From positions 1-64,000 of the forward strand of contig JACPGE010000062.1 in NCBI GenBank assembly GCA_016182605.1: 64,000 nucleotides of DNA, written 5' to 3'. The translations under genes and the position numbers were made by a program. Shown here piece by piece: positions 13,251-54,838 of this stretch; positions within the stretch are counted from its first letter, which is position 1; every line of letters starts with the position of its first letter. The stretch is from Candidatus Hydrogenedentota bacterium. Its GTDB lineage: Bacteria > Hydrogenedentota > Hydrogenedentia > Hydrogenedentales > JAEUWI01. A model generated the notes under the pieces. The model did no database searches and had not been told where the DNA came from. It saw nothing but the letters and a program-made list of their open reading frames with translations.

Positions 13251-15737
13251 CTATTTGCCGGGTGAAAATTTCAGGGTGTGTCTGGCGTTGGCGGCGATTT
13301 GTTCTTCGGTGAAATTCACCGTCCGGTATTCCCCGTTGAGGAACATGGCGGATTGATCGTCGTAGTGCGGGCTCTTGGGGTGGCCTGAATTGCCGGTGGG
13401 CAGAATGCTCAGGGTGTTTTCGATGGCGCCGAAGTCGATGAGCCGCCGGGTCGAGGGGCCCGCGACCGTTTCGAAATCGTCCAGGCCGCGGTAGAGCATG
13501 TTGTTCACGATTTGCGCGCCGCCGGAAGCGGGGAAGGGGCCGATGTTGAAGAGCTTGTCGAAGAAGGGCAGGTAACCGAGCGGGTGCGTGAATTCCATGG
13601 TGTGTATCTTGCCCCATTGCCACGCGCCCATGTCATCGCCCATCTTGCGCGTGAGGCTGTCCACGGTGTCGCGGAAGGCCGCCGCCAGGATGGTATCGCG
13701 CGGTTCCGCGGCCTCGGTTGTGGAGTCGTCCCAGAAGGGGTTGGCCTCGTCGATCATGAAGTACTTCATGAAGTTCCAACTGTCCGCGAGAGAGGTGTAA
13801 ATGAAGAGGTTGTCTTCGCCCATTTCATCGCCGAGGGCGTGGACGAAGATGCGGTCGAAGAACTGCTGGTAGATGGCTGCGCCAGCGGATTCCTTGCCGT
13901 GGGCGTGATCCCATTGCTTGAGTATGGCGAGTGCGTGGGCTTCGCGGCTGTCCGCATCGAAGCCGGCCTTGTCCAGTGCGGCGAAGAGCACGGGCAGCAG
14001 CTTGCCGGTGGCATGTGCGGTGTCGTCGAACTGAACGGTTTTCAGGGACTCGCTATCCCACTTGGGGGCGGTTTCCAGGAGGTGCTCGATGCGTCCGGCG
14101 CGATCGGTGGGCTGCCAATAGCCCTGCAGGTCCTGAATGCCGCCAAAGGCTTTCACGGAGGATTTGTTGTTCGCCGTGACGATGTAGCCCCAGTCCGGAT
14201 TTTTCAGGTGGGGATTCAGTTCGGCGGGCACATAGCCCAGGATCTCGTGCGCCCCGGAGGCGCCGTCGAGCAGGGCCTTGTTGTTCATGCCCTGCGGCCG
14301 GATCGGCAGGCGTCCGGCGGCCCACCACGCGAAATTGTTTGCGCTGTCGACGTAGGAAATGTTCACCCCGGGCGAGGTAATCAGCTTCGTGCCGGCTTCG
14401 AATTCTTCATAAGTTTTCGCGTGGCCCATTTTGTAGAAGCCGGCCATGTCGGTATAGTCCAGGTGCTGCCACACCCAGGACAGGGAGACATCCGGCCCTT
14501 CGTATCCCATGAGCGCCTTTAAGAGATCGGTGATGACCGGGCCGTGGTTGGTGATGCGTACTTTGGCGATCGTGTCGCGGCCGAAGCGCACTTTGATGGG
14601 CGTCTCTTCGACCCGCACGGGCACCCATTCGCCCTTGTACTTGACCTGATTCGGATCGTCCGGGTTAAAGGTTTCCTGGTAGAGGTCCACATCGTCATTG
14701 GCAAACATGGTCAGTGCCCAGGCGTGGTTCCGGTTGTGACCGAGGAGTGGAAAGGGGACGAGCGGGAGGTGGTAGCCATAGTTTTCGAAATCGCCATACT
14801 TCAGGTGGGCTTCGTACCAGATGCTCGGGTTGGTGAATCCAATGTGCGGATCGTTGGCGAGCAGGGCCTTGCCCGACTTGGTGCGGGAGGGGCCGAGCAC
14901 CCAGGAATTGCTGCCGAGCGCCGGCCCGAAGAGGGTGTTCAGGTCCTTCAGGGGCTTGAGGAGCGAGAGGAGTTGATCGGCGTTCGCGTTCGCGGGCGCG
15001 GGCAGGTGGTAGGCGGGAAGCTGGTTCTCGCGTATGAAGGATTCGGCTTCTTCGAGGGTTTCCATGACGGTTACAGGCACTTCGCGGTGATAACCCGGGA
15101 AGAGGAGTTGCACGTCTTTGTCCTTGATGCGCGCCTGGAGCATGGTGTTAAGGGGATCTTCGCGAATGCCATCTGCAAAGGTAATGGGGAGAATGGCGGC
15201 GACAGTCAGGCAGTCCGCGGTGTCGAAGGGTTCCGGGCTCAGAGCGAGGAAGCTGTATTCCGGCGGTGTGGGGTCCGTGGCGATGCGATGGTTGATGCCG
15301 GCCACATAGGCCTCGCCAATGGCGCCGATCTCCGGGTATTGAGTGGAAATCTTCGCCCATTGTTCCTCGGCGGTCCGGCGCAGGCGGAAGCCCTTTACGA
15401 TCGCATCGACAGGAGCGGCGATAGGCCCGGCGATTTCGGCGAGGCGGCCCGCGGCGAGCCTGCGCATGGCGTCCAACTGGAAGAGGCGGTCCTGGGCCTG
15501 GCAATAGCCGAGGGCGAAGTAGGCGTCCGTTTCCTGGCGGGCGACGATGTGCGGCACGCCCCATTGGTCACGCGTGACGGTGACTTCGTCCTTCAGGCTG
15601 GGGTGCTTGATGGCGCCATCGAGGCCGGGCTGGCTGAAGTTGAAGCGGTAGCCGAGCCAGGCGCATTCCAACAGCACCAGGGCTATCGGCACCAAAGCGA
15701 TGCGCTTGATCCACTTGCGTATTCGACGGCCCATCAT
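13251..15737 (-). CDS. Penicillin acylase family N-terminal-nucleophile hydrolase
   Basis: An 828-residue precursor, exported via an N-terminal hydrophobic segment (residues 10-29) and expected to self-cleave into alpha and beta chains. The beta-chain nucleophile is Ser276 in GPALGSNSWVLGPSRT, with the usual ANDPHIGFTNPSIWYE following. The alpha chain holds VTRDQWGVPHIVA and GYCQAQDRLFQLD. GGAGGA sits right before the two tandem start Mets; the second may be used. Family members hydrolyse amide bonds in beta-lactams, N-acyl-homoserine lactones or other acylated amines; the substrate is not predictable. The neighbour is a short-chain dehydrogenase 90 nt upstream on the same strand. Confidence 0.93.
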   Translation of the reverse strand: MMGRRIRKWIKRIALVPIALVLLECAWLGYRFNFSQPGLDGAIKHPSLKDEVTVTRDQWGVPHIVARQETDAYFALGYCQAQDRLFQLDAMRRLAAGRLAEIAGPIAAPVDAIVKGFRLRRTAEEQWAKISTQYPEIGAIGEAYVAGINHRIATDPTPPEYSFLALSPEPFDTADCLTVAAILPITFADGIREDPLNTMLQARIKDKDVQLLFPGYHREVPVTVMETLEEAESFIRENQLPAYHLPAPANANADQLLSLLKPLKDLNTLFGPALGSNSWVLGPSRTKSGKALLANDPHIGFTNPSIWYEAHLKYGDFENYGYHLPLVPFPLLGHNRNHAWALTMFANDDVDLYQETFNPDDPNQVKYKGEWVPVRVEETPIKVRFGRDTIAKVRITNHGPVITDLLKALMGYEGPDVSLSWVWQHLDYTDMAGFYKMGHAKTYEEFEAGTKLITSPGVNISYVDSANNFAWWAAGRLPIRPQGMNNKALLDGASGAHEILGYVPAELNPHLKNPDWGYIVTANNKSSVKAFGGIQDLQGYWQPTDRAGRIEHLLETAPKWDSESLKTVQFDDTAHATGKLLPVLFAALDKAGFDADSREAHALAILKQWDHAHGKESAGAAIYQQFFDRIFVHALGDEMGEDNLFIYTSLADSWNFMKYFMIDEANPFWDDSTTEAAEPRDTILAAAFRDTVDSLTRKMGDDMGAWQWGKIHTMEFTHPLGYLPFFDKLFNIGPFPASGGAQIVNNMLYRGLDDFETVAGPSTRRLIDFGAIENTLSILPTGNSGHPKSPHYDDQSAMFLNGEYRTVNFTEEQIAANARHTLKFSPGK

Positions 15738-31956: not shown

Positions 31957-32031
31957 GCCCCGATAGTTCAACGGATAGAACGTCCGCCTCCTAAGTGGAA
32001 AATACAGGTTCGATTCCTGTTCGGGGCGCCA
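31957..32031 (+). tRNA. tRNA-Arg (anticodon CCT)
   Basis: A full cloverleaf can be drawn by hand. Acceptor GCCCCGA (31957-31963) pairs with TCGGGGC (32021-32027), the D arm is GTTC/GAAC, and the anticodon stem is TCCGC/GTGGA. Loop CTCCTAA has anticodon CCT at 31990-31992, and the T arm is ACAGG-TTCGATT-CCTGT. Discriminator G and an encoded CCA end it (32028-32031). It reads AGG codons, so the amino acid is arginine. Confidence 0.96.
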
Positions 32032-32216
32032 TTGTCTCTGGTGTGTTCGGCGGGTTGCTGCGGGGTGGGCGGCATCGCCCGGGCAGGGCGCCCGTTGCTG
32101 GCGGCGTGGAGCACAGCGCCCCCAGGAATTCAGTGAAAGCTTTTTGCGGCTCAACCTACACACTTGGGTGCAATCGGCGCGTACGGTCCAGGGAATGCCC
32201 TGAGAGGAGATCTGGC

Positions 32217-34040
32217 GTGAGCGAGAAGAAGCAGAAGCATTCCCGGGCGACCAATGCCTGGCAGGAAGCCCGCGTCATCGTATGGGGTTACCGCAAACGC
32301 CTGGCCTTGGGCATGGTACTCATGGTGGTGAACCGGGGCGCCGGGTTCGTATTGCCGGGTTCGTCGAAATTTCTCGTCGACAATATTCTAATCCCTTCCG
32401 GCTTGCCACCGGAGACCAAGACGCACTACCTCTATCTGCTTGGCGCCGCCGTGCTGGCGGCGACCTTTGTTCAGGCCATTACTTCTTTCGCCCTGTCTCA
32501 GGTGCTCGGAGTGGCGGCACAGCGGGCCATAACCGAAATGCGCAAAAGCGTGCAACAGCATATCCTGCGCCTGCCGACTTCGTTCTTCGATTCCAAGAAA
32601 ACCGGCGAACTGGTCTCCCGTATCATGACCGACGCCGAAGGCATCCGGAACCTCGTGGGGACGGGGCTGGTGCAGCTCACCGGCGGACTGCTTACGGCGG
32701 TCGTTGCCCTTGGTGTCCTCTTCTACCTCAACTGGCAAATGACTTCCGCGACGATCGTGGTCCTCTCGGTTTTCGGCGGCTGCATGGCCTATGCCTTCAA
32801 CAAACTCCGGCCCCTGTTTCGTGAGCGCGGCGAGATCAATGCCCAGGTCACCGGGCGCCTCACCGAAAGTCTCGGGGGGATCCGCGTCGTCAAAGGCTAC
32901 ACCTCCGAGCGGCGCGAAGACATTGTGTTTGCCAAGGGCGTGCACAAACTCTTCCGCAATGTCGCGGCCGCGGTGACAGGCGTTTCCGCAATCGGCGCGG
33001 TCACCACCGCTCTCATCGGCCTCATAGGCGTGCTCATGATCACCATGGGCGGCCGCGCGGTCATTGCCGCCACGATGAGCGAAGGCGATTTCTTCATGTA
33101 TATCTTTTTCGTCGGCATGGTGGTCTTGCCGCTGGTGCAGATAGCTTCCATTGGCACCCAGATCAGCGAAGCATTCGCGGGACTCGACCGCATCCGCGAA
33201 ATCCGCACCCAGGCAACGGAAGACGTGACGGATCGGGATCGCAGGGCGCTCGATCATGTTGAGGGCCATATCCAGTTTGAGAATGTATGCTTTGAATACG
33301 ACGAAGGTCTCCCAGTCCTGAAGGACGTCTCTTTCGATGCCAAGGCGGGCATGACAACGGCGCTGGTGGGGTCGAGCGGTTCGGGCAAGAGCACGCTGCT
33401 GGGGCTGGTGATGGCGTATCACCGGCCCTCGAAAGGCGCCATCTTTGTGGATGGACAAGACCTGAATGAACTGAAGTTGCGGCCCTACCGCAGCCACCTG
33501 GGCCTGGTGCTGCAGGACAACTTCCTCTTCGACGGCACCATCGCGGAGAACATTGCCTTCAGCAAGCCCAACGCGTCCCTGGAGGAAATCAAGAAGGTTA
33601 GCGTGATTGCCCACTGCGATGAATTCGTCAGCCGCTTTGAACACGGCTATGAAACCGTCGTGGGCGAACGCGGCGTGAAGCTTTCTGGCGGGCAGCGCCA
33701 GCGAATCGCCATTGCCCGGGCCATTCTCTCCGATGCCCAGATCCTGATTCTGGACGAGGCCACCTCCAGCCTGGACAGTGAGAGTGAGGCCCTGATCCAG
33801 GATGGTCTGAACCGGCTTCGGGCAGGGCGGACGACGTTTGTGATTGCGCACCGGCTGTCGACGGTCCGCAGCGCGGACCAGATCCTGGTGCTGGAAGGGG
33901 GAAAAATCGTGGAATCGGGCACCCACGACGAACTGCTTGTCCTGAACGGCCGCTACCGGGAGCTTTACGACAAGCAGTACAAGCTGGAAAGCAACCGCTT
34001 CATCAATCCCGGAGAAGAATTCCCCCCCGAGGTGGCCTAG
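32217..34040 (+). CDS. ABC exporter with fused membrane and ATPase domains (MsbA-like)
   Basis: A 607-residue half-transporter that works as a homodimer in the inner membrane. Six helices fill residues about 20-330 and the nucleotide-binding domain about 345-590. Walker A is VGSSGSGKST, signature LSGGQRQR, Walker B ILILDEATSSLD, and the switch histidine is in VIAHRLSTV. GTG at 32217 is chosen with AGAGGAGAT just upstream; the frame is open to 31995 but those codons cross the tRNA. It resembles MsbA lipid flippases and multidrug exporters; lipid A precursor or another lipid is possible. It follows the tRNA by 185 nt. Confidence 0.9.
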   Translation: MSEKKQKHSRATNAWQEARVIVWGYRKRLALGMVLMVVNRGAGFVLPGSSKFLVDNILIPSGLPPETKTHYLYLLGAAVLAATFVQAITSFALSQVLGVAAQRAITEMRKSVQQHILRLPTSFFDSKKTGELVSRIMTDAEGIRNLVGTGLVQLTGGLLTAVVALGVLFYLNWQMTSATIVVLSVFGGCMAYAFNKLRPLFRERGEINAQVTGRLTESLGGIRVVKGYTSERREDIVFAKGVHKLFRNVAAAVTGVSAIGAVTTALIGLIGVLMITMGGRAVIAATMSEGDFFMYIFFVGMVVLPLVQIASIGTQISEAFAGLDRIREIRTQATEDVTDRDRRALDHVEGHIQFENVCFEYDEGLPVLKDVSFDAKAGMTTALVGSSGSGKSTLLGLVMAYHRPSKGAIFVDGQDLNELKLRPYRSHLGLVLQDNFLFDGTIAENIAFSKPNASLEEIKKVSVIAHCDEFVSRFEHGYETVVGERGVKLSGGQRQRIAIARAILSDAQILILDEATSSLDSESEALIQDGLNRLRAGRTTFVIAHRLSTVRSADQILVLEGGKIVESGTHDELLVLNGRYRELYDKQYKLESNRFINPGEEFPPEVA

Positions 34041-37786: not shown

Positions 37787-39295
37787 TTAAGATGGGGCTT
37801 CCGCCGCGGGGGAATCCGCGGGCGTTTCTCCCCCGGGGAGCCCAATAATTGCAGCGCACCCCTGATCCGGCTGGCTGTACAGGGTGAGGCTCCCCCCCGC
37901 GCGCTCCAGCAGGAGGCGGCAGAGGGCGATGCCCAATCCGGGGTGCTCGGGGCGCGTCGAGAAAAAGGGGGTGGCCGCGCGTTGCCGTTGCGCCGGCGGC
38001 ATGCCGTTTCCGTAATCGCGGAGGATGATCTCGCCCGCATGCTGCCCACGGGGCGCTTTGATCGCGATCTCCAGGGGGAGCCCGGATTCAGAGGCTGCCA
38101 GTGCGTTGCTGGCCAGTTCATGCACACAGAAATCGAGCACGGTACGGCCAAGGGCCGTGTAGCACGGTTCCTGCGTCACCGTAAGGCGAATTGGCGGTGA
38201 TGCGGGCCAGGCCGCAATGAGTTCCGCGAGGTGATCGCCCGCGGCGTAGCGGGAGGATTCTCGAAGCGGCAGCAAGCCCTGTTGCGCCGCGGCGTGCAAG
38301 GCGAGGCCGGGATGCAGCGGGTGATCGAATCCCAGCAATGTGCGGGGCAGGGGCAATACCGGCTGTCGAGCAGGCGCAACGCCGGTGAGACGATCGAAGA
38401 GCGCGTGGTATGTGGCACGCAATTGCTGTTCGCAGGACTCCGCGATCGAATGACGGGCCTCTTCGAGGGCGGCGGCCCGGTCCGCCGCGGCTTCCTGCAA
38501 GAGGCGGTCGCGTTCGCCACGCAGGGCGATCAGTTCCAACTGATCCCCCTGAAGCGTAACGGTCTTAATCGCCGTTCGTGCTGGGGCTGCCGTTATGGGC
38601 GGCAGACCATGTGCCGGATTGCGCGCATCCGCCCGTGCGAGGATTTTTTTCCACAACAGCGGCAGTGCAATCAGGCCAAGGAGCAGAGGAACAGCGGCTG
38701 CCAAGTGAATGAAATATGCGATCCGTTGGGCGAGTTCCACTTCATCGGCGCGGACAGCGGCCATACGCGCCGCAGCGCCCGCGTCTTGGCGGGCCACGGC
38801 AATGAGGCAATCCCGGTCTGGGTAGACCTTGACCAAAGCGATTGCATTGAGGGGCGAAGCGCCGTCGTCTGCAGGTGTGCCGCGAAGCAGGAATCTCGAC
38901 TCGTCTTTCAACACCGTGTCCTTGAACAAGGCCTGGATACGCTCCCGGCTCAGGAGCCCGCCCAATGCCTGCGGCAGTTCTTGACGGCCCTGCGCGTGGC
39001 CCCGGACATCGAAAGCAACGACGTGAATCTCCGGCGAGGCTGCGTCGTCTTGATTGAGCAGGGCTTCACACGATTGGGAGGGATCGGCCTGACGCCTTGC
39101 CTCTGCAAGGGCAAGCAACTGATCGGCAAGGACCTCAAACTGTGCGTTGTTCTCTGCCAGCCACTCTTCATACAGGGCACGCCACCGGCCATCGATTGCG
39201 GCATTCGCTCGGGCGCACAACGCGCGATCCATGGCGAATGCGGCAAGTGCCACCAGGGCGCTCATGGCCAATGCGCGGAGGTAGCTGGACTTCAT
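37787..39295 (-). CDS. Histidine-kinase-like sensor ATPase without obvious phospho-histidine box
   Basis: A 502-residue membrane sensor. Helix 1 is at residues 9-22 (AMSALVALAAFAMD), followed by a 170-residue extracytoplasmic domain and a second helix near residues 195-220 (IAYFIHLAAAVPLLLGLIALPL). A coiled-coil (ERDRLLQEAAADRAAALEEA) and a GHKL ATPase follow. The ATPase keeps the N box (HELASNALAA), the DxGxG box (RDYGNGMP) and the glycine-rich lid (GLGIALCRLLLERAGG). I cannot find a DHp-type HE[LI]RTP histidine box; candidate histidines in the coiled-coil (ARHSIAE, TYHALF) are unclear. The start overlaps the preceding gene's stop by 4 nt (ATGA). Confidence 0.8.
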   Translation of the reverse strand: MKSSYLRALAMSALVALAAFAMDRALCARANAAIDGRWRALYEEWLAENNAQFEVLADQLLALAEARRQADPSQSCEALLNQDDAASPEIHVVAFDVRGHAQGRQELPQALGGLLSRERIQALFKDTVLKDESRFLLRGTPADDGASPLNAIALVKVYPDRDCLIAVARQDAGAAARMAAVRADEVELAQRIAYFIHLAAAVPLLLGLIALPLLWKKILARADARNPAHGLPPITAAPARTAIKTVTLQGDQLELIALRGERDRLLQEAAADRAAALEEARHSIAESCEQQLRATYHALFDRLTGVAPARQPVLPLPRTLLGFDHPLHPGLALHAAAQQGLLPLRESSRYAAGDHLAELIAAWPASPPIRLTVTQEPCYTALGRTVLDFCVHELASNALAASESGLPLEIAIKAPRGQHAGEIILRDYGNGMPPAQRQRAATPFFSTRPEHPGLGIALCRLLLERAGGSLTLYSQPDQGCAAIIGLPGGETPADSPAAEAPS

Positions 39296-40278
39296 GAAAG
39301 ATCCTTTAGAGCCGGGGGGCGATAACGGTCCAGGGTTTCGATATCGAGAAAACGGGCGGGCAATGTGCAGTCCAGTCCACTTAGCCCGTAGCGCTTGGAG
39401 AGCACGGCCTGAAAGACCGGAAAGAACCCCTGCACAAACCATTGCGAATCGCTTACAAAGGCCACCTTCCCCGCACGCACCTGTTCTTCGATCCGCGGGT
39501 TGATGCCAAAGCCCGCAATAGGAATCGTGGCACTCTTGCCCATAGCCTCCACGGCTTCAACAGCGGCGTCCAGCACGGCACTTACGCAGACCACCCCCGC
39601 CACATCCCCGCCAAGCTGCTCCACTCTATGCTGGATCTGTGCGCGCAACGGCAGGGACTGCCGGCGGCGGACGGACAGGATATCCGCCTTTAGACCGAGT
39701 GCGCGGAGGGCATCGCTGCACCCGGCGGCGCGTGTGCGCCCCGAGGCGGTTCGCCCGCCGGCGATCAAGACCGTCTTGCCGGCGGGCAACTTAAAGCGGC
39801 GCACCAGTTCATTGGCGGTTTCCCATCCATTCCGATACGGATCTTCACCGATGAAGCCCGCGTTGTTGCCCCGATGCTTGGCCGGGTCCAGTTGCGCCTT
39901 CTCATCATAGGTGGCGACGGGAATGCCGGCGGCTTCAATCTCCCGGATGAAGGTGTCCACTGTGACGGCGCCGTGCATGCCGGGCACACACAAGGCCCCG
40001 GGTTGGGCGCGCGCGGCAAGTTTCAGATCCCGCGCCAAGCTTTCCGCATTGCGCTGCGTGGGAATCAGACGCACGCTGCACCCCAGCGTGGCGGCCGCGC
40101 GGTTTGCCCCTGAAAGGACCTCGGGATGGAGGAGCGCGCCGCCATCCGCAAAATAGAGGAACGCGATCTCGAGATCGCGGTAGGGCGCGGGATTTGCATG
40201 GAGGCTGTAAAGACGATGCGCGAAGATGGCCCCAAAGAGGAGGTCGAGCAAAAGGATAAACTTCAGGGCGGCGCTCAT
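39292..40278 (-). CDS. Membrane-anchored periplasmic sugar-binding-like protein, downstream paralog
   Basis: A 328-residue RbsB-type (Peripla_BP_4) fold tethered by an uncleaved N-terminal helix (ALKFILLLDLLFGAIFAHRLY). No lipobox is present. Ligand-binding lobes are marked by AFLYFADGGALLHPEVLSGANRAA and IPIAGFGINPRIEEQVRAG. The C-terminus (WFVQGFFPVFQAVLSKRYGLSGLD) is plainly homologous to that of the upstream gene (PFLQGYLPVLQICLTRRFGVSGLH). ATG at 40278 overlaps the upstream stop (ATGA), and its own stop overlaps the kinase start, so translation is coupled. No ABC permease or ATPase accompanies it, which points to sensing, not uptake. Confidence 0.8.
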   Translation of the reverse strand: MSAALKFILLLDLLFGAIFAHRLYSLHANPAPYRDLEIAFLYFADGGALLHPEVLSGANRAAATLGCSVRLIPTQRNAESLARDLKLAARAQPGALCVPGMHGAVTVDTFIREIEAAGIPVATYDEKAQLDPAKHRGNNAGFIGEDPYRNGWETANELVRRFKLPAGKTVLIAGGRTASGRTRAAGCSDALRALGLKADILSVRRRQSLPLRAQIQHRVEQLGGDVAGVVCVSAVLDAAVEAVEAMGKSATIPIAGFGINPRIEEQVRAGKVAFVSDSQWFVQGFFPVFQAVLSKRYGLSGLDCTLPARFLDIETLDRYRPPALKDLS

Positions 40279-41306
40279 GGATTCCCCCACGGCCCAGAGG
40301 CGGCAGTGGAGCCGTCGTAAAGGGAGCCCCCTGTATCGAAATGGAGGCCGGAAACACCAAAGCGGCGTGTCAGACAGATCTGGAGGACAGGCAGATAACC
40401 CTGGAGAAAAGGCTGTTGATCGAGGAGGAGTCTGGCGTAGCCCATCTCCGCTGCCATCGCCGATGAGAGATCCACATCGAAGCCTGCGAGCGGAAGCCGA
40501 TCGGCGGAGACGCCCGCCATCTTCAGTGCATTTGCGATCGGAAGCATGGGGCCGCCATCGTACACGCAGAGTCTTACGTCATCGTTCTCCTTCAGATGCG
40601 CCAGCAATACCTGTTCTGCGGAGAGTGGCGGCGTCTGAGCCCGGGCCGCATCCACATCCAGACGATCCACCCGAAGCCCGCTTTGCTCCAATGCTTCAAG
40701 GCAGCCGAGCGGACGCACGGAGCGCGCCAGCGTCGAGAAAGCGCCGAGGAGCGCGACCCGCGTGCCGGGCGCCAAGTCGAAGTAACGCCTCACGGCGGCG
40801 CCCAGGCGCTGCCCCGCGCCAGCGAGATCCTGGCCGGCGTAGCCGAAGCCCTGCGCGGCATAGCGGGATTCGAGCCCGTCAAAAGGGACGTTCAGGCTGG
40901 TGACGGCAATGCCCTCCTCAAAGGCGGATTCGATCAATGGAACGAGGGCGTCCTGAGCGGGAAATCCGATAAGGCAGATGCCGTCCGGGGCGCTTTCGAT
41001 CGCGTTGGTCAGTTGACCGGTGATGCGTTCTTCCGACCAATGGGTCCAGCGCATTTCCACCTTGCACCCAAGATCCCGCTCGGCTGCGCGCACGCCCATT
41101 GCGACGGTATCGGAAATGGGTTGGCCTGGCGCGCCGCCCATGATGAAGACAATATCCAGATCGCCGAAACGATGACGGCTCGGGGCCAGATCCCTGGGGG
41201 GCGTCAGCACGAGGCCCGCTCCCAGGGCGCACAAGAGGATGAGGGAGAGGGCCCAGATGCTTTTCCGGGAGAATGTCGCCTTGGAACTTAGCTTCATACG
41301 TGCCAT
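40275..41306 (-). CDS. Membrane-anchored periplasmic sugar-binding-like protein, upstream paralog
   Basis: A 343-residue RbsB-like protein with an N-terminal anchor (SIWALSLILLCALGAGLVL, residues about 16-34). Periplasmic lobes include DIVFIMGGAPGQPISDTVAMG, a first strand and helix of the family, and GMPLLPIA-type VYDGGPMLPIANALKMAG. It shares with the downstream gene the QPFLQGYLPVLQ region, so the pair probably arose by tandem duplication. ATG at 41306 or 41297; neither has a strong RBS. It is the first gene of the kinase operon. Confidence 0.78.
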   Translation of the reverse strand: MARMKLSSKATFSRKSIWALSLILLCALGAGLVLTPPRDLAPSRHRFGDLDIVFIMGGAPGQPISDTVAMGVRAAERDLGCKVEMRWTHWSEERITGQLTNAIESAPDGICLIGFPAQDALVPLIESAFEEGIAVTSLNVPFDGLESRYAAQGFGYAGQDLAGAGQRLGAAVRRYFDLAPGTRVALLGAFSTLARSVRPLGCLEALEQSGLRVDRLDVDAARAQTPPLSAEQVLLAHLKENDDVRLCVYDGGPMLPIANALKMAGVSADRLPLAGFDVDLSSAMAAEMGYARLLLDQQPFLQGYLPVLQICLTRRFGVSGLHFDTGGSLYDGSTAASGPWGNP

Positions 41307-41441: not shown

Positions 41442-42962
41442 ATGAAGGAACATCTTTTACGCGTCTATCCATCGAAGGTGGCGCTAGCCAAGAAAGAGCA
41501 GTTTGCGTGGAAGATCGCGGAAGTTGCTTCTGACCGGCCGCCGGTGGACGACGAGGCGCGGGAAATGGTTATCAACCGCTTCATCGACAATGCGGCGGTC
41601 GCCATTGCGGCAATCAACCGGCAACCCGTGGCCAATGCGCGCAGCCAGGCGCTGGCGCACCCGCGCCCAGGCGGGGCGATCCTTTTCGGCATGCCCAACG
41701 ATCAGACCTTTGAGGCGGAGTGGGTGGCGTGGGCGAATGGCACGGCGGTGCGCGAGCTGGACATGCACGACACCTTTCTCGCCGCGGATTATTCCCATCC
41801 GGGCGACAACATACCTCCGATTTTGGCCGTGGCGCAGCAATGCGGCCACGATCATGGTTTGAGCGGCGCGGATATCGTGCGCGGCATTCTGGTGGCCTAT
41901 GAGATACAGATCAATTTGGTGAAGGCGATCTGTTTGCACGAGCACAAGAAAGACCACATTGCCCACTTGGCGCCGGCGCAGGCCGCCGGCATTGGCGCGC
42001 TGCTGGGTCTGGAAACAAACATCGTTTGCCAAGCCGTGCAACAGGCGGTGCATTGCGCTTTCACTACCCGGCAAAGCCGGAAGGGCGAGATCTCGAGCTG
42101 GAAGGCCTATGCGCCCGCCCACGCCGGAAAACTTGCCATCGAAGCGGTGGATCGGGCCATGCGCGGGGAAGGCAGCCCGAGCCCGATCTATGAAGGCGAG
42201 GACAGCGTGCTGGCGTATATGCTTTCGGGGCCAAACGCGGAATACCGGATTTCCCTGCCGGAGCATGGCGAGCCCTGCCGCGCCATACTCGATTCGTATA
42301 CGAAGCAGCACTCGGCGGAGTATCAAAGCCAGGCGTTGATCGATCTGGCCTTCCGCATGCGCGAACAGATTTACAATCTGGACGACATCGCGGCGATCAC
42401 CATTCATACCAGCCACCATACGCATTATGTGATCGGCACCGGGGCGAACGATCCGCAGAAGATGGATCCCAAGGCCAGCCGGGAAACGCTCGATCACAGC
42501 ATCATGTACATTTTCGCCGTGGCCCTGCAAGACGGCGTCTGGCACCATGTGGCCAGCTACACGCCCGAACGCGCCGCGCGCCCGGACACCGTCGCGCTGT
42601 GGCACAAGGTCAAGACGGTGGAAGACCCGGAGTGGACACGCCGCTACCACTCCTCCGATCCGAATGAGAAGGCTTTTGGCGGCCGCGTGGTGATTGCCTT
42701 CAAGGACGGCAATTCGATGACCGACGAGATGGCAGTCGCGAACGCGCACAGCCTTGGCGCCCGGCCGTGGACACGTCCGGACTATATCGGCAAGTTCGAA
42801 ACGCTCACCGAGGGCATACTCCATCCCGATGAACGGAGCCGCTTCTTGAACTGCGTGCAGAACATCATGGATCTGGAGGCCACGGACTTTCACCAGTTGA
42901 ACGTGCAGATTTCCTTTGACAAGCTGAAGTGCAACAAGCGCGACAGCCGCGGCATCTTCTAA
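41442..42962 (+). CDS. prpD: MmgE/PrpD family 2-methylcitrate dehydratase
   Basis: Dehydrates 2-methylcitrate to 2-methyl-cis-aconitate in the methylcitrate cycle (propionyl-CoA breakdown); cytoplasmic, 506 residues. The family stretch [23 protein letters not shown], the [21 protein letters not shown] substrate loop and the C-terminal [13 protein letters not shown] are visible. AAGGAA precedes the ATG by about 10 nt. Its function is supported by prpC and prpB nearby, though these are on the opposite strand beyond a membrane hydrolase gene. The last 4 nt overlap that convergent gene. Confidence 0.93.
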
Positions 42963-43831
42963 CCTGCTTTGACTAAGGCTGGACCGCGCCGTTCGGTCCG
43001 GTAGTAGGCGTAGGAACAGGCCAGGGTGAGCGAGGTGAGCACATGCCATACGGCATGGCCCTGATACCACGCATCCGGCCTGGAAAAGCGGCCCGCTATA
43101 TCCGCCTGCCTGCAGTAGACCGCCACGATCAGCAAGCCCAACGACAGTGCGAACCACCGTGCGCGCACCTGCTTGCGGAAGCGAATCTGGTCCAGCAGGG
43201 AGAATGCGGCAACGCCAAGTATCAATGCCGGCAGCACCGTGTCCGAAGACATGGACCATTTGTAGAAGTAGAGCAGCGCGCTCACGATTGCCGCCGCCGC
43301 TGCAAGCGCCCCTGGCAGCCAGGGCCTGTCGATCGCGGGGGAGAGCCAGCGGCCGAGGTTGAGCGCGATCAGCACGCACAACGGCGCGTACATGGCGGCC
43401 ACGTCCAGTTGTTGCCCCCAGCGCGTGAGCGAGGCGTGGAAGAGGCCGCTTCCCAGGCCAAGGTAGACGCACGCGAGACCAAACAAAGCGGAAAAGACAG
43501 GATGGCGCAAGAGGTAGCCCGCGTCTTGCGCCATGGCGCGCCTGCGATCGTGAAAGGCAAGCGCGCACACATAGAGCCCCGCGAGCACATACGCCAGATT
43601 GGACCAGGTGTTTGCGCGCGTGCGGAAAATGCTTTCCAGATGGACCGTTTCGCAGTAGGCGGGGTTGCGCAACTCGCCGCTTTCGCGCCACCCCTCCCAT
43701 ACGTTCACGTCGCGGAATGCCAGGAACAACCCGAGCAGTACCAGGCAGGACATCGCAAAACTGCCCCAGACCGCGGTGTGGAGTTGCCAGGGAAGGCGGC
43801 CGGGCATATCAAGTTGTGATTCGGCGCTCAT
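42959..43831 (-). CDS. CREST-family membrane hydrolase (alkaline-ceramidase-like)
   Basis: A 290-residue integral membrane protein with about seven helices. The CREST superfamily zinc motif is suggested by [21 protein letters not shown] (Ser, His and Asp spacing) together with a C-terminal [13 protein letters not shown], a His-x3-His. Family members include alkaline ceramidases and PAQR receptors. In bacteria the substrate is unclear; a lipid amide is only a guess. The ATG at 43831 is the first Met before the membrane stretches; upstream codons to 43897 lack an RBS. Confidence 0.7.
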
Positions 43832-43895
43832 CGTATTTTCCGATCGGGTGCGGAGCCGGATATGCGCCGGCGAAGAGCAGACCGGCGTAAGCGGC

Positions 43896-47554: not shown

Positions 47555-48529
47555 TCAGCCGCGCCGATCGATATAGATGCCCTGGGCCGCGCTGCCCGAC
47601 AGGGCGTTCTGCCGCAGGTGAGAGAGGGTTTCGAAAAGTTCCCGGAAACTGATGTTGCTGTTGGCCTCCCGTGTGGTCACGCAAATCAGCACGTTCAGAT
47701 CCACCGGCCGGTCCGTCACCAGTTTGATATCAAGCGTGGAACTGAGCTTCGGCACATGCTTTTGCCACATCTCCTGGATGAGCTGGCAATATCTTTCGGC
47801 GGCCTGCGGCTCCATCATGCACACAAAGTGCCCGCCGCCCATGTGTCCCACGGCATAAAACTGGGCCTCCATTTCCTTGCCGCACAGATGCAGGCAGCGC
47901 GCGAAATGACGCAATGCCTTCGCGCGTGCTTCCGCGCCGTTGCGCTTGGCGAACTCCTGGATGCCCCCCAGTTCCACATAGGCCAGACTGAAGGTGTTCC
48001 GGCGCGAAATGGCCCGCTGAATGCGCAGCTTCATGTCGTGCGGCCCCGGCAGAGCGGTCTGCTCATCCACCAGCCGTTCCTGGGAATTGGAGGCGAGCAG
48101 GCGCTCAACGCGCTTGGCGAGATCGCGCATGTTAAACGGCTTGGTTACATAGTCGTCCGCGCCCTGTGCCAGGCCATGGTCGATCTCTTCGCTGTCGGTC
48201 ATGGCAGAAATGAGGATGATCGGCAGGGAATACAACTCGGCGTTTGCCCGTATCTTGCGGCACAATTCAAAACCCGAGACCCCCGGCAGCATCACATCCA
48301 GGATGAGGAGATCGGGCGCCGTGCTGTTTATCGCCTGCACTGCCCGTTCCGCAGTCGGCTCGGAGACACACGTGTGGCCGTCGGCCTTCAACTGTGTCCG
48401 GATTGCCTCACACATCCGCGCATCGTCGTCGACTATCAGGATATTGGCCAAACTTCTACTCCACTTACCTGTATGTACTTCCGGTGGCACAGTGGTACTC
48501 CCTTGTACCGTATACTTGCGGGCGGGCAT
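47555..48529 (-). CDS. Response regulator with degenerate GGDEF domain
   Basis: A receiver domain (residues about 30-150; ILIVDDDARM, phospho-acceptor in LLILDVMLPGVSG, lysine in YVTKPFN) is fused to a GGDEF-like domain. The latter's catalytic signature reads GGGHF (AVGHMGGGHFVCMM) instead of GGDEF, so diguanylate cyclase activity is unlikely. The start is unclear: ATG at 48529, or a TTG at 48451 which begins LANILIVDDD directly. No kinase or c-di-GMP partner is adjacent. Confidence 0.82.
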   Translation of the reverse strand: MPARKYTVQGSTTVPPEVHTGKWSRSLANILIVDDDARMCEAIRTQLKADGHTCVSEPTAERAVQAINSTAPDLLILDVMLPGVSGFELCRKIRANAELYSLPIILISAMTDSEEIDHGLAQGADDYVTKPFNMRDLAKRVERLLASNSQERLVDEQTALPGPHDMKLRIQRAISRRNTFSLAYVELGGIQEFAKRNGAEARAKALRHFARCLHLCGKEMEAQFYAVGHMGGGHFVCMMEPQAAERYCQLIQEMWQKHVPKLSSTLDIKLVTDRPVDLNVLICVTTREANSNISFRELFETLSHLRQNALSGSAAQGIYIDRRG

Positions 48530-48835: not shown

Positions 48836-51800
48836 ATGGCACCTGTTTCGCACCTTGATCTGGCCGATCCCGCGCGCTGCCTCCATCAGCGCTTCGAAAC
48901 TTGGGCAGATCGTACCCCCGATCGCACGGCCCTTCGATTTCAGGGACGGCAGATCGCCTATGCGGATCTCGATGCCCAAGCCAACCGTCTAGCGCATCTT
49001 CTTGTTGCCAAAGGGGTTGTGAAAGAAACGCTCGTGGGGCTGTGCCTGGATCGATCGGAACAAACCCTGGTCGCCATTCTGGCCGTGCTCAAGGCCCGCG
49101 GAGCCTATGTTCCGCTCGATCCGGTCTACCCGGAAGAGCGGATCCAGCTTATTCTCCAGGACGCGGGATGTCCGGTTGTGATTACCCAGCGGGCCCTGCG
49201 AGACAAGCTCGGCCACATCCACACCGCTCAGGTTCTGGTCCTGGAGGAGATCGCGGCGGAACTGGACGCCCAATCGGAAAGCAATTTGAACCTGCCCGCG
49301 GATCCCCAGGATCTTGCGTATGTCATTTATACATCAGGCTCGACGGGCACGCCCAAGGGTGTCTTGATTACTCACCACAATGTGATGCGCCTGATGGATC
49401 AGTGCGCGCCCTGGTACCAGTTCAATGATACCGACGTGTGGCCCCTCTTCCATTCCTATGCCTTCGACATGTCCGTCTGGGAGATCTGGGGCGCATTCAT
49501 GTATGGCGGGGTGCTCGTGGTCGTTGGCTACCAGGAAAGCCGTTCGCCGGCGGAGTTTTACGCGCTCCTGGTCCGCGAAGGCGTAACCATGTTGAATCAA
49601 ACGCCCTCTGCCTTTCACCAGATCGTGGAGTACGAGAAGCAGCTTCCGCCGGACAGATATGTCCACTCCCTGCGCTTCGTGACCTTTGGCGGCGAGATTC
49701 TGGATTTCCCGGGGCTGCGCCCGTGGCTCGAGCGGCACGGCGACCAGCATCCCGTCCTTGTGAACAAATACGGGATCACCGAAACGACAGTGCACAACAC
49801 CTACCGTCCTGTTCGCATGGAAGACTGTTACGACGGCGCCCCCAGTCTCATCGGCGTGCCCATACCCGACTTGCAGATTTACGTCTTGGACAGCGAGATG
49901 CGCGAAGTGGGCGTAAATGAAACGGGGGAGATCTATGTGGGGGGGCCGGGTCTCGGCAGGGGATACCTCAACCGCGCGGAACTGACGGCCGAGCGCTTCC
50001 TGCAAAATCCTTTCGATCCTTCAGGCGCGGGCCGTCTCTATAAATCGGGCGATCTTGTGTGCCGGCTGCCGAATGGCGAGTTGGCCTGCAGGGGCCGCAT
50101 CGATCATCAGATCAAGATTCGGGGCTTTCGCGTTGAGCTGGGCGAGATAGAATCGGTCATTGGCGCCTGTCCAGAAGTGCAAAAGGTTTCCGTGGAGGCG
50201 CGCAATGGCGGGGGAGACGTTTTCCTGATCGCCTATTACAGCGCAGCCGGGACGGTGCCCCCCCAGAAGCTGCGGGAACACGTCTCCCGCAAACTCCCCC
50301 CCTACATGGTGCCTGGCCGCTTTCAACAGGTGGAACGCTTCCCCCTTACGCCCAACGGGAAGATCGATCGCAAGGCGCTTGCCGCCATGATGGCCGATCG
50401 GGTTGAGAGCGGGACCTTACCCACATCCTCGAATCCAACCGAAAAGGCCTTGATCGGCTGTTGGGCGGAACTGCTGCCGGTCTCCACGTTTGGCCTCGAC
50501 GATTCCTTCTTCGATCTGGGCGGGCACTCGCTCTCCGCCACGCGCCTGATGTTTCTCGTGCAAGAGCGGCTTGGCATCGACATGCCTTGGACGTGTGTCT
50601 TCGGGCGCCCCACGATACGCCTGCTGGCGGCCCACCTCGAAGAACTCCGGAAGAACCGCGCCGCACTGCCCGTTCTGCCGCCGCTCGTGCGGGTCCCGCG
50701 TTCGGGCCCGCCGCCCCTGTCGCTGCCGCAACAACGGCTGTGGTATCTCGACAAATTTGAGCCGGGGCAGGCCGTCTACAACACCGCGTTTGTGATTCAC
50801 ATCCAGGGGCCGCTGGATGTGCGTTCGCTCGAAAGCAGCCTGAACGGGATCGTAGCGCGCCACGAGGTGTTGCGGACCACCTTCTCCGAGGAGCAGGGGA
50901 CTCCGTTCCAGATAATTGCTCCGGTTGCCCCCTTTACGCTGCCCGTGCAGAACCTTGGAGAGTTTCCGGCGTTTCAACGGGGCGGAGAAGCCCTGCGTGC
51001 CATCGCCGCGGAAGCGGAGCTTCCTTATGATCTGGCGGCAGGACCATTGCGCCGTTTCACGCTCTATGCGCTGGAAGAGAACCGGCACATACTCGGCGCC
51101 CATTTTCACCATATCGTTTTTGACGGTCTTTCTCTGGGCGTGTTCTTGCGTGAACTCGCGGCGCGCTACGATGCCGTGCGCAACGGTGGAAGCGCGCCAG
51201 GCGAATTGCCAATCCAGTACGCCGATTTCGCCTGCTATCAACAGCAATGCCTTGAATTGGGCGTCTGGAACGAGGACCTCGCGTATTGGAGAACGCAGCT
51301 TCCCGACGGTGTGCCCGCCCTGGATTTGCCCGTTGACCTGCCGCGTGCCGCGGCGCAACGCCATGACGGAGGCAACCTCACCCGGCGCCTCTCCCGCACG
51401 CTGAGTCATGAACTGCGCGCCTTGAGCCGCAATGCCCAGGTTACCATCAACACCACCCTGCTCACGGCATGGAAGGTTCTTCTGTACCGCTACACCGGGC
51501 AGACGGATATCGCCGCCGGCGCCGCCGTGGCAGGCAGGGATCGTGCCGGGCTGGATGGCCTCATCGGCTTCTTCGTCAATACCGTCGTTTTGCGCTCGGA
51601 CCTCGGCGGCGGCCCCAGTTTCGCGGACTTGCTTGTCCGGGAGCATACGGCCGCCATGGCGGCCTACGCGCACGGAGGCCTGCCTTTTGAACGGATGATC
51701 GCGGGGATCCGGCCCGATCGCAACGCATCGCAACCGGCTATGCTGCAGGTGATGTTCGCGGGCCAGGATTCGCCCATCGAAGGCATGGAATGCGGCGGCC

Positions 51801-54800
51801 TCTCCTATTCCGCCGAGGAATACTTCAACAAGACGGCCAAGTTCGAATTGACGCTGTTTTTCTTCGACCGGGAGGATGGCCTCACCCTCTTGCTGGAATA
51901 CAACACCGGTCTTTTCCTGGAGTCCACCGCGTTACGCATGCTGGATCACCTGGAGACGCTGCTCCAGGCCGCGGCGGCCCATCCGGAGCATTCCATCGAT
52001 CGCCTGCCCCTGCTTGCGGCATCGGAATCGCAACGCATACTTCACGAGTGGAGCGGCGCGCCGAGCCCCTTCCCAAGGGAGCAACCGCTCGCCGCACTTT
52101 TCGAAGCCCAGGCGGCCAAAGCCCCGGATGCGTGTGCCATATCGATGGAGGGGCGCGCAACAACCTACGCTTCCCTGAATGCATCGGCAAACCGTCTCGC
52201 CCACTACCTCGTGCGAAACGGAGTGAAACCCGGCGATCTGGTGGGTGTTTGCATGGAGCGCAGCCCCGGCATGGTTGCCGCCGTGCTTGCCATACTCAAG
52301 GCGGGCGGGGCATACGTGCCCCTGGATCCCGACGCGCCCGGCAAGCGCATACAGACCATGGTGGAGGACTCCGCTATACGTCTTGTGCTCACGGGCCAGC
52401 AGTGGCAGGCATGTCTTTCCGGCTGCAATGTGGAGATGCTCGATCTCCAGGCCGAAAACGGGGACATCGATAAGGAGAGCCCGGAAAACCTCCCGGTGAA
52501 CGCTAACGGCGAGTCCCTGGCCTATGTGCTTTACACCTCGGGCTCCACCGGTGTTCCCAAAGGTGTCTGTATCCCGCAGCGTGCCGTCGCGCGGCTGGTC
52601 CTGAATACCGGCTATTGCCAGCTTGGCCCGGATTCGCGGGTGGCCCACCTCTCGAATGTGGCCTTTGACGCCGCCACCTTTGAACTCTGGGGGCCCCTGC
52701 TCAATGGCGGGCGTATTGTGGTCATCGAGAAGCACGTCGCGATCGCCCCTGCGGACCTTGCCAGCGCATTGCGCAAGGAAGGCATTACCGCCCTGTTCGT
52801 GACCGCTGCATTGTTCAACCGCCTCATTGGCGTGCGCCCGGACATCTTTGCCAGCGTGGAGACGGTCATGACGGGCGGCGAAGCCCTGGACCCCCACTGG
52901 ATTCGCGCCGCCCTCAATGGCGGGGGCGCGCCGGCCCGGCTGCTCAATGGTTATGGCCCCACCGAAACCACCACCTTCGCCACGTGGCATCTCATCGATC
53001 ATGTGGCCGGAAACGCCCGTGCCATTCCCATTGGCCGGCCCATTGCGAACACCCGGGTCTATGTGCTCGACAAGTGCCTGCAGCCGGTGCCCGTGGGCGT
53101 GCCAGGAGAACTCTACATCGGTGGTGACGGCGTCGCCCTGGGCTATCTGAACCGGCCAGCGCTGAATGCGGAACGTTTCATAGAGAATCCTTTCGTGCCC
53201 GGCGGCGGCCGCCTGTACAGAACCGGCGACTTGGTGCGATGGCTGCCCGATGGCGCCATAGACTTTCTTGGCCGGCTGGACAACCAGATCAAGCTGCGGG
53301 GCTTCCGCATAGAGCTGGGCGAGATCGAAACGGTCTTGCTGCGGCATGGCGCGGTACAAGAAGCCGCCGTACTGGTTCGCGAAGGCGATGCGGAAGACCG
53401 GCGTCTGGTGGCCTATGTGGTTGCGAAGGAAGGCGCCACGCTCACGCGGCAGGAACTGATAGACTCCGCATCCGAGCGCCTTCCGGGATACATGGTGCCG
53501 CGGCACATTGTCATGCTCGACCACCTGCCCCTGAACCGCAACGGAAAGCTGGATCGCGCCCTTCTGCCCAATCCGCTCTTGACGCAGCCAATCATGCATC
53601 ACTCCAGGGAAGAGCGCACCGCGGATACGAGCCTGGAACGCGCCATCGCCGGGACGTGGGCGCGTTTCCTGGGCGTCGAAGACCTGAAGGCCACGGACAA
53701 TTTCTTTGAACTGGGCGGATATTCGCTGATGGCGATTCGCGTGGCCACGGTGCTGAGTGAGCGGCTCGGATGCGAAGTTCCGCTGCGCGAACTCTTCGAG
53801 TACCGGACGCCGGCCCAGTTGGCTGCGCGGATACAGATCCTGATGGCGAACGGCGGGCAGGCGGATGCGCCCGCGAGGGATCTCTCCAAGCGCCTCCAGA
53901 TTCGATTGGTGACCCTGCAGAAGGGCCGGCGCAAGCCCTTCTTCTGCATTACCGGCGCCGGCGATGTCGCGGGTTCCTATGGGCCGCTGGTCTCGCACCT
54001 CGATCCCGATCAGCCTTTCCATGGCTTTCCGGATCCGCAGCTCGATGTAACGTACGACGTCTTCCCCACGGTCGAGGAACTCGCCGTGCATTATATCGCC
54101 GCCATTAAATCGGTGCAGCCCCAAGGGCCGTATCTGCTGGGCGGCTATTCGTTTGGAGGCATGGTCTCCTTCGAGATGTCGCGGCAGCTCATTGCGGCGG
54201 GCGAACAGGTGGGGCTGCTGGTGATGATCGATACCAACGCTTTCCCGGAACGCCTGAAGGTGCAACGCTGGTCGCCACAGGCATGGCCCATTCTCTTTAA
54301 CAAAGTCCGCGTCCGGATGCTCATGGTATACCACACCTTTCCCAATATTCTCGGTTACGTGCGCGATATCGGGCGTCTGCTGCTTTCCGGGGGCGCTCCC
54401 GAAGTGGAGGGATGTTCACGCCCGACGGCGAAAGAGTATCTGCGGTGGATCTGGCACGACATTTCCAACCAGTATTTCATGAAGCAGGCGGGCTTCGTAA
54501 AACCCCGCTTCGCAGACGCGCGCCTCAGCATGATCTATCAGCCGTGGGTGCGCCGTGTCACAAACACCATGTCCTCTAGCATTGCGGCCATGCAGGTTTA
54601 CAAAATGCAGCCCGTCGATGTCCGCGTGACGCTTATGCGCGTGGCTCATGATCCCTGGCGCGGCGCCAGGCGCGATCCCACGCTGGGGTGGGGGCGCTTC
54701 GCAACCCGGGGCGTGGACGTGCATGTCGTGGATGGCAACCATATGGTGCTTTTGCAACAGCCCTTCGTGAAGTCGCTGGCCCGCGAACTCCAGACCTGTC

Positions 54801-54838
54801 TGGATGCGGCGCAGGCTGATGACGGGGCCGGCAAGTAG
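48836..54838 (+). CDS. Dimodular nonribosomal peptide synthetase (A-T-C-A-T-TE)
   Basis: A 2000-residue enzyme that would join two amino acids and release the product through its thioesterase. Domains: A1 (1-530; YTSGSTGTPKG at about 164), T1 (phosphopantetheine Ser565 in GGHS), C (625-1060; HHIVFDG, H758-G764). Then A2 (1080-1560; YTSGSTGVPKG from Y1233), T2 (Ser1630 in GGYS) and TE (1680-1990; GYSFGG with Ser1772, Asp1799, His1969). By hand alignment A1's specificity positions read D-M-W-N-T-G-K-V-H-K, near the threonine code (7 of 10). A2 reads D-A-F-F-M-G-G-T-F-K, near valine/isoleucine codes. These are predictions only. No phosphopantetheinyl transferase or tailoring gene is in the window. 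Confidence 0.95.
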   Translation: MAPVSHLDLADPARCLHQRFETWADRTPDRTALRFQGRQIAYADLDAQANRLAHLLVAKGVVKETLVGLCLDRSEQTLVAILAVLKARGAYVPLDPVYPEERIQLILQDAGCPVVITQRALRDKLGHIHTAQVLVLEEIAAELDAQSESNLNLPADPQDLAYVIYTSGSTGTPKGVLITHHNVMRLMDQCAPWYQFNDTDVWPLFHSYAFDMSVWEIWGAFMYGGVLVVVGYQESRSPAEFYALLVREGVTMLNQTPSAFHQIVEYEKQLPPDRYVHSLRFVTFGGEILDFPGLRPWLERHGDQHPVLVNKYGITETTVHNTYRPVRMEDCYDGAPSLIGVPIPDLQIYVLDSEMREVGVNETGEIYVGGPGLGRGYLNRAELTAERFLQNPFDPSGAGRLYKSGDLVCRLPNGELACRGRIDHQIKIRGFRVELGEIESVIGACPEVQKVSVEARNGGGDVFLIAYYSAAGTVPPQKLREHVSRKLPPYMVPGRFQQVERFPLTPNGKIDRKALAAMMADRVESGTLPTSSNPTEKALIGCWAELLPVSTFGLDDSFFDLGGHSLSATRLMFLVQERLGIDMPWTCVFGRPTIRLLAAHLEELRKNRAALPVLPPLVRVPRSGPPPLSLPQQRLWYLDKFEPGQAVYNTAFVIHIQGPLDVRSLESSLNGIVARHEVLRTTFSEEQGTPFQIIAPVAPFTLPVQNLGEFPAFQRGGEALRAIAAEAELPYDLAAGPLRRFTLYALEENRHILGAHFHHIVFDGLSLGVFLRELAARYDAVRNGGSAPGELPIQYADFACYQQQCLELGVWNEDLAYWRTQLPDGVPALDLPVDLPRAAAQRHDGGNLTRRLSRTLSHELRALSRNAQVTINTTLLTAWKVLLYRYTGQTDIAAGAAVAGRDRAGLDGLIGFFVNTVVLRSDLGGGPSFADLLVREHTAAMAAYAHGGLPFERMIAGIRPDRNASQPAMLQVMFAGQDSPIEGMECGGLSYSAEEYFNKTAKFELTLFFFDREDGLTLLLEYNTGLFLESTALRMLDHLETLLQAAAAHPEHSIDRLPLLAASESQRILHEWSGAPSPFPREQPLAALFEAQAAKAPDACAISMEGRATTYASLNASANRLAHYLVRNGVKPGDLVGVCMERSPGMVAAVLAILKAGGAYVPLDPDAPGKRIQTMVEDSAIRLVLTGQQWQACLSGCNVEMLDLQAENGDIDKESPENLPVNANGESLAYVLYTSGSTGVPKGVCIPQRAVARLVLNTGYCQLGPDSRVAHLSNVAFDAATFELWGPLLNGGRIVVIEKHVAIAPADLASALRKEGITALFVTAALFNRLIGVRPDIFASVETVMTGGEALDPHWIRAALNGGGAPARLLNGYGPTETTTFATWHLIDHVAGNARAIPIGRPIANTRVYVLDKCLQPVPVGVPGELYIGGDGVALGYLNRPALNAERFIENPFVPGGGRLYRTGDLVRWLPDGAIDFLGRLDNQIKLRGFRIELGEIETVLLRHGAVQEAAVLVREGDAEDRRLVAYVVAKEGATLTRQELIDSASERLPGYMVPRHIVMLDHLPLNRNGKLDRALLPNPLLTQPIMHHSREERTADTSLERAIAGTWARFLGVEDLKATDNFFELGGYSLMAIRVATVLSERLGCEVPLRELFEYRTPAQLAARIQILMANGGQADAPARDLSKRLQIRLVTLQKGRRKPFFCITGAGDVAGSYGPLVSHLDPDQPFHGFPDPQLDVTYDVFPTVEELAVHYIAAIKSVQPQGPYLLGGYSFGGMVSFEMSRQLIAAGEQVGLLVMIDTNAFPERLKVQRWSPQAWPILFNKVRVRMLMVYHTFPNILGYVRDIGRLLLSGGAPEVEGCSRPTAKEYLRWIWHDISNQYFMKQAGFVKPRFADARLSMIYQPWVRRVTNTMSSSIAAMQVYKMQPVDVRVTLMRVAHDPWRGARRDPTLGWGRFATRGVDVHVVDGNHMVLLQQPFVKSLARELQTCLDAAQADDGAGK

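Follow-up and report, generated by a model that had tools for sequence, protein, structure and literature searches.

Two ribose-type binding proteins encoded with a kinase-like protein that has no recognisable phosphoacceptor domain in Hydrogenedentota

A 64,000-nucleotide stretch of contig JACPGE010000062.1 (assembly GCA_016182605.1, Candidatus Hydrogenedentota bacterium), referred to here as the window, contains a module of three genes on the minus strand, read in the order BP1, BP2 and HK. BP1 (positions 41306-40275) and BP2 (40278-39292) encode ribose-type binding proteins, and HK (39295-37787) encodes a sensor protein with two transmembrane helices and a histidine-kinase-type ATPase domain. 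We propose that the three products form a binding-protein-gated membrane receptor with a non-canonical, pseudokinase-type output, and give this reading a probability of about 0.5. The unusual feature of the module is the combination of two paralogous binding proteins, probably both tethered, with a kinase-like protein that has no recognisable phosphoacceptor domain.

Gene coupling and the kinase-like protein

The three genes are real and correctly read. All frames are open, and ATGA overlaps join BP1 to BP2 and BP2 to HK, as an earlier note on this DNA, made from the letters alone, had described. Together with the kept gene order, these overlaps provide the gene-level feature of binding-protein-dependent sensors, a binding-protein gene coupled to a two-helix sensor gene with no transporter genes. 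No permease or importer ATPase of the ATP-binding cassette (ABC) type adjoins the module in the window, again in agreement with the note, or in the related genomes G034 and G035. An ABC importer or a remnant of one was rejected, since the PF13407 fold is present but the same three genes recur with no adjoining permease or importer ATPase. An ABC exporter-type gene at 31995-34040 is unrelated to the module. A promoter and terminator scan of the module gave nothing above chance.

HK contains two membrane helices by hydropathy, both in the window and in its relatives. Residues 28-192 (38720-39214, minus strand) are predicted to form a periplasmic sensor domain, with a PAS/Cache-like pattern of helix plus strands that is assigned at low confidence from hydropathy and a weak model (pLDDT, the predicted local distance difference test score, of 50). 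The ATPase domain occupies residues 389-487 (37835-38131, minus strand) and matches HATPase_c (8e-13), the sole Pfam family found in the protein. Its N (HELASNAL), G1 (DYGNGM), F (TPFFST) and G2 (GLGIAL) boxes are all intact, as the earlier note had claimed and as in a canonical sensor kinase, and the key ATPase residues are invariant across the three HK members. The domain is modelled with a pLDDT of ~85-95 and matches the catalytic and ATP-binding domain of WalK (template modelling score 0.86). Its nearest sequences are ZraS/AtoS-like HisKA kinases of Hydrogenedentota.

Residues 297-345 (38261-38407, minus strand) take the place of the dimerization and histidine phosphotransfer (DHp) domain. 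Pfam HisKA gave no match in any of the three HK members at E 10, and the same search returned 1e-11 to 1e-14 in the controls, four ordinary kinases from Hydrogenedentota, so that the missing histidine box pointed out in the earlier note is seen in all three proteins. Moreover, a DHp plus ATPase profile of 28 ordinary kinase segments, in which some genes are counted from two loci, aligns to the module kinases over the ATPase part only. The spacing from the phosphoacceptor His to the N-box Asn is 110-116 residues in 27 of these 28 segments (the remaining value, 75, most likely reflects an error in the search pattern). The corresponding spacing in the module kinases is 98-100, which leaves the segment 12-16 residues short. 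At the same alignment column, G034 has a His (ARVIH) and G035 a Gln (ARAIQ), and for the window protein the alignments variously give Ala, Pro or Glu. The window segment is proline-rich, with seven Pro in residues 300-345. HisKA kinases carry an acidic residue after the phosphoacceptor His; the nearest His of the window protein, H297, is followed by Ala, and none of the three members has a recognisable DHp domain with such a His-acid pair.

The structure prediction points in the same direction. A first full-length HK model, built from three sequences, was too weak to use (pLDDT 50). A second one, with 20 ordinary kinases as support, runs from a long helix (251-304) through residues 308-325, which are modelled at low confidence, and a helix of ten residues to the ATPase domain, and contains no DHp hairpin, with a pLDDT of ~40 in the segment and no ordinary kinase modelled as control. 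Because of this confidence, the model is supportive rather than proof. A clear DHp histidine by structure prediction, one half of what the earlier note said would make this an ordinary two-component system, was thus not found, in a segment of low confidence. A hidden canonical DHp domain was rejected, as it was found neither by Pfam at E 10 nor by the 28-member kinase profile, two alignments and two structure predictions. The hairpin and regulator-docking part of HK is accordingly modelled as shortened or missing.

The two binding proteins

BP1 and BP2 both match PF13407 in Pfam (2e-16 and 7e-17, respectively) and share 28% identity over 277 residues (BLASTP, E 1e-23). They are distant ribose-type paralogs, and BP1 has orthologs in G034, G035 and G038. 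Each binding protein, in the window and in the relatives, possesses one N-terminal hydrophobic helix by hydropathy. The helix of BP1 contains a single Cys (LLCA), which is not a lipobox because no Gly, Ala or Ser precedes it, and the N-termini of the relatives' binding proteins contain no Cys. The earlier description of two anchored, non-lipidated paralogs therefore stands for the paralogy, the N-terminal helix and the missing lipobox, whereas the helix itself may be an anchor or a cleavable signal.

The shared QPFLQGY/QWFVQGF region, which had been taken to mark this pair, is more widely distributed: ABC-type sugar-binding proteins from Rhizobiales, from Spirochaetes and from other Hydrogenedentota also carry the motif (DQQPF-LQG-Y/F, YQG-A). 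Both GFD and DQQPF are retained in the window's BP1; BP2 has GFG in place of GFD, and the other orthologs vary. The Asp and Gln of GFD and DQQPF touch the sugar in RbsB-type proteins. The GFG of BP2 and the variation among orthologs suggest that the ligands of BP1, BP2 and their orthologs probably differ.

A profile of all seven binding proteins matches solved CUT2 sugar-binding proteins, which places them, by profile similarity, within that group. In addition, it matches 6sw4 (arabinose binding protein) and 5xss/5xsj (periplasmic binding protein), which we take to be AraP and XylFII, both serving sensor kinases. In a tree that left out all own-genome rows (including own_L139 and own_L141), neither a BP1 clade (p-AU, the P value of the approximately unbiased test, 0.11) nor a BP2 clade (p-AU 0.19) was rejected, and shared and separate ancestry were not separated.

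A scan of ~85,000 genomes with the BP1 alignment found no module members outside the phylum. The matches there were confined to proteins of Spirochaetes and Alphaproteobacteria at 31-37% identity, flanked by genes whose starts resemble those of ABC ATPases and permeases (a reading by eye and not from a profile), and they look like ABC binding proteins only. Weaker matches in G060 and G067 are likewise ABC-type binding proteins beside permease-like genes. At these loci (L048 4654-7865, L049 5595-9628), a URO-D-type methyltransferase-like gene stands beside the RbsB-type binding protein and the permease-like gene (named by eye).

Distribution and genomic neighbourhood

Profile searches covered 68 Hydrogenedentota genomes, all from one order. 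The pair of binding proteins was found in three of them and BP1 in a fourth, all belonging to the family of the window genome: G000 (the window genome, genus g1), G034 and G035 (g3), and G038 (g4). The contig of G038 ends inside BP1, so that only the start of the module is visible there, and full-length HK is present in G000, G034 and G035 only. The comparison thus rests on three full-length members, with no close strains among them. Looking for the same gene order in related genomes, as the earlier note had advised, we found BP1-BP2-HK in G034 and G035 and its beginning in G038.

BP1 is divergent from a prpD-like gene (41442-42962, plus strand; NCBIfam) in all four carriers; this gene is context and not part of the module. 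The window reads sthA(-), HK, BP2, BP1(-), prpD(+), two other genes, aminotransferase(-) and regulator(-). The order is prpD(-), BP1, BP2, HK(+), porin(-), sthA(+), regulator(+) and aminotransferase(+) in G034, and aminotransferase(-), regulator(-), HK, BP2, BP1(-) and prpD(+) in G035. The module is missing from three of the seven genomes of the family, at the corresponding site or close to it. In G033, prpD and sthA are ~170 bases apart with nothing between them; G037 has prpD, porin, sthA, regulator and aminotransferase with the three module genes absent; and in G036 prpD stands beside a sulfatase-like gene (named by eye). Compared with the carriers, these empty sites show that the module is present or absent as a block. 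The prpD-sthA junction holds nothing in G033, a porin in G037 and a porin plus the module in G034, and this variation suggests a site of frequent gene gain or loss.

The flanking prpD, sthA and aminotransferase are 75-82% identical between family genomes and the regulator ~50%; the binding proteins and HK of the window share 24-35% identity with those of the other carriers. The three genomes together carry nine module genes, each of them a full-length open frame. That all nine are complete at such identity argues that selection keeps the module while its recognition or action changes fast, and the kept gene order at this level of protein identity argues for function rather than decay.

The regulator at 47555-48529 (minus strand), 8 kb from the module, consists of a REC domain (Pfam) and a C-terminus that no Pfam family matches and that resembles a GGDEF domain in degenerate form (GGGHF). 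Its existence corrects the earlier statement that no response regulator is nearby, and its ortholog in G035 starts ~460 bases after the kinase gene. The regulator occurs, however, in 67 of the 68 genomes, nearly all of them without the module, and in G036, G037 and G002, which have no module, it still adjoins the same aminotransferase. A conserved adjacent regulator in other genomes, which, joined to a clear DHp histidine, the earlier note would have taken as pointing to an ordinary two-component system, is therefore seen in the sense that one lies directly behind HK in G035; this gene, however, is found throughout the phylum and does not depend on the module. No dedicated cognate regulator is encoded with the module, the nearest being this core gene that is kept without it. 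The presence of the regulator in 67 of 68 genomes weakens its case as a dedicated partner, and we regard it as a conserved neighbour and a possible candidate partner only.

Several other genes of the window were noted in passing. The regulator is often beside a PRK06855-type aminotransferase across Hydrogenedentota. In the window, it also stands beside a 2000-residue protein (48836-54838, plus strand) with Pfam AMP-binding (two stretches), condensation, phosphopantetheine and thioesterase domains, which is a short non-ribosomal peptide synthetase. A Ceramidase-family membrane protein (42959-43834, minus strand; PF05875, 1.6e-13) is encoded next to prpD, and a penicillin amidase family protein (PF01804, 1e-208) at 13251-15737 (minus strand).

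Proposed receptor, alternatives and known systems

In the proposed mechanism, BP1, perhaps with BP2 as a co-receptor of altered ligand site, would bind a small solute, probably like a sugar, on the outer side of the inner membrane. The N-terminal helices would hold both binding proteins at the membrane, where these would touch the periplasmic domain of HK; we propose this action by analogy with CuaD-CuaS and XylFII-LytS. From there the signal would travel along the second membrane helix and then a coiled coil to reach the ATP-binding domain. Given the eroded phosphoacceptor part, the output would be non-classical and most likely not a His-to-Asp relay of HK's own: HK would change shape in an ATP-dependent way and make contact with another kinase or a regulator. 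Somewhat more tentatively, at a little less than an even chance, the module may represent a family-restricted class of receptors that lost the phosphoacceptor hairpin and kept ATP binding, in which an outside solute controls an ATP-driven switch with no phosphotransfer of its own.

Several observations weigh against a pseudokinase-type output. Each of the three members has a His no more than a few residues from where one is expected (H297, H325, H324; spacing 96-100), and that of G034 has a plausible context (ARVIHRQLLP), so that the module kinases may be phosphorylated. Furthermore, the model loses confidence exactly in the DHp segment. A canonical HisKA two-component system was rejected, since both defining features, HisKA with its His-acid pair and a dedicated regulator, are missing. 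The module could, though we think it less likely, still be a working binding-protein-dependent two-component sensor, whose short divergent DHp domain is phosphorylated at these His residues (N-box minus 96-100) and signals to the REC/GGDEF-like or another regulator. The intact ATPase boxes, the regulator directly behind the kinase gene in G035 and the 128 REC matches in the window genome are all consistent with it. Against it stand a His column that is not conserved, the lack of an acidic residue after the nearest His, an undetectable HisKA with a hairpin and docking part predicted to be shortened or missing, and a syntenic regulator that mostly occurs where the module does not. Mainly because G035 has no His in the column and the window protein no hairpin in its model, a pseudokinase-type output is somewhat more likely than a divergent working kinase.

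Two further explanations concern the module as a whole. Absence from three of seven family genomes at the same or a near site, very fast divergence and the eroded phosphoacceptor would also fit a module on its way out of the family as selection relaxes, with a decaying kinase of no present function; this is improbable, since a module decaying across distances of this size would have picked up stops and frameshifts, whereas all nine frames are complete and the ATPase residues are kept. It is still harder to believe that the binding proteins and the kinase-like protein are mere neighbours that do not cooperate. Adjacent binding-protein and sensor-kinase genes are sometimes unlinked, and their adjacency alone can mislead (PMC11113362), but here the same order is found in two genera, the genes are translationally coupled in the window and the three come and go as one block. 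Chemotaxis-like genes were not seen in the loci that were read, and no separate search for CheA features was made.

If the receptor with a pseudokinase-type output is real, the module is a natural example of a sensor kinase converted into a receptor that has no autophosphorylation and is controlled by periplasmic binding proteins. Its relatives would then represent different stages, with the His kept in G034, replaced by Gln in G035 and the hairpin gone in the window. They would provide a testable series for the origin of bacterial pseudokinases and a first way into how an uncultured phylum senses solutes.

In LuxP/LuxQ and TorT/TorS, a ribose-type periplasmic binding protein gates a sensor kinase with a periplasmic domain, as we propose for the module. 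HK has no receiver domain, unlike the hybrid kinases LuxQ and TorS, and LuxP and TorT are single and soluble. Since these pairs, like XylFII/LytS and CuaD/CuaS, are known binding-protein-gated sensor kinases, the module is not of a wholly unrecognised type: a sensing unit of binding proteins and a kinase-like protein, as the earlier note saw it, remains the best reading, but gating by binding proteins is already known.

Among the kinases of the phylum, the ZraS/AtoS-like HisKA kinases (L102, L119 and others) have the ATPase domain most similar to that of HK, but they possess a GVAHD-RNPLN H-box, HisKA and the usual spacing, which the module kinases do not. The ABC-type sugar-binding proteins of Rhizobiales and Spirochaetes (L091-L096) resemble BP1 in fold, in the GFD and DQQPFLQGY motifs and in their 31-37% identity, and differ from BP1 and BP2 in being flanked by genes that look, by eye, like ABC ATPases and permeases.

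The closest systems are XylFII-LytS(-YesN) and CuaD-CuaS-CuaR, in which a membrane-held sugar-binding protein is encoded with a two-helix sensor kinase, separate from the transporter, and binds the outer domain of the sensor (PMC10384115). Each of them has one binding protein and a dedicated regulator gene. The module differs in its two paralogs and in having neither a regulator of its own nor a phosphoacceptor domain that can be recognised; unlike CuaD, BP1 and BP2 are not lipoproteins. DivL carries Tyr in place of the phosphoacceptor His, has neither kinase nor phosphatase activity and acts through its binding to a phosphorylated regulator (PMC4211667). It resembles HK in its kinase fold and kept ATPase domain and, in part, in the replaced His: the module column has Gln in G035, His in G034 and an ambiguous residue in the window. 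DivL keeps the DHp hairpin and the regulator docking surface and is PAS-gated, whereas HK is probably gated by binding proteins; the module was not placed with DivL because the low-confidence model of HK contains no such hairpin, in a segment whose spacing is 12-16 residues short. ChrS, with a broken ATPase domain, forms heterodimers and acts through another kinase (PMC9491836). HK is the reverse of ChrS, as it keeps the ATPase part while its phosphoacceptor part is eroded.

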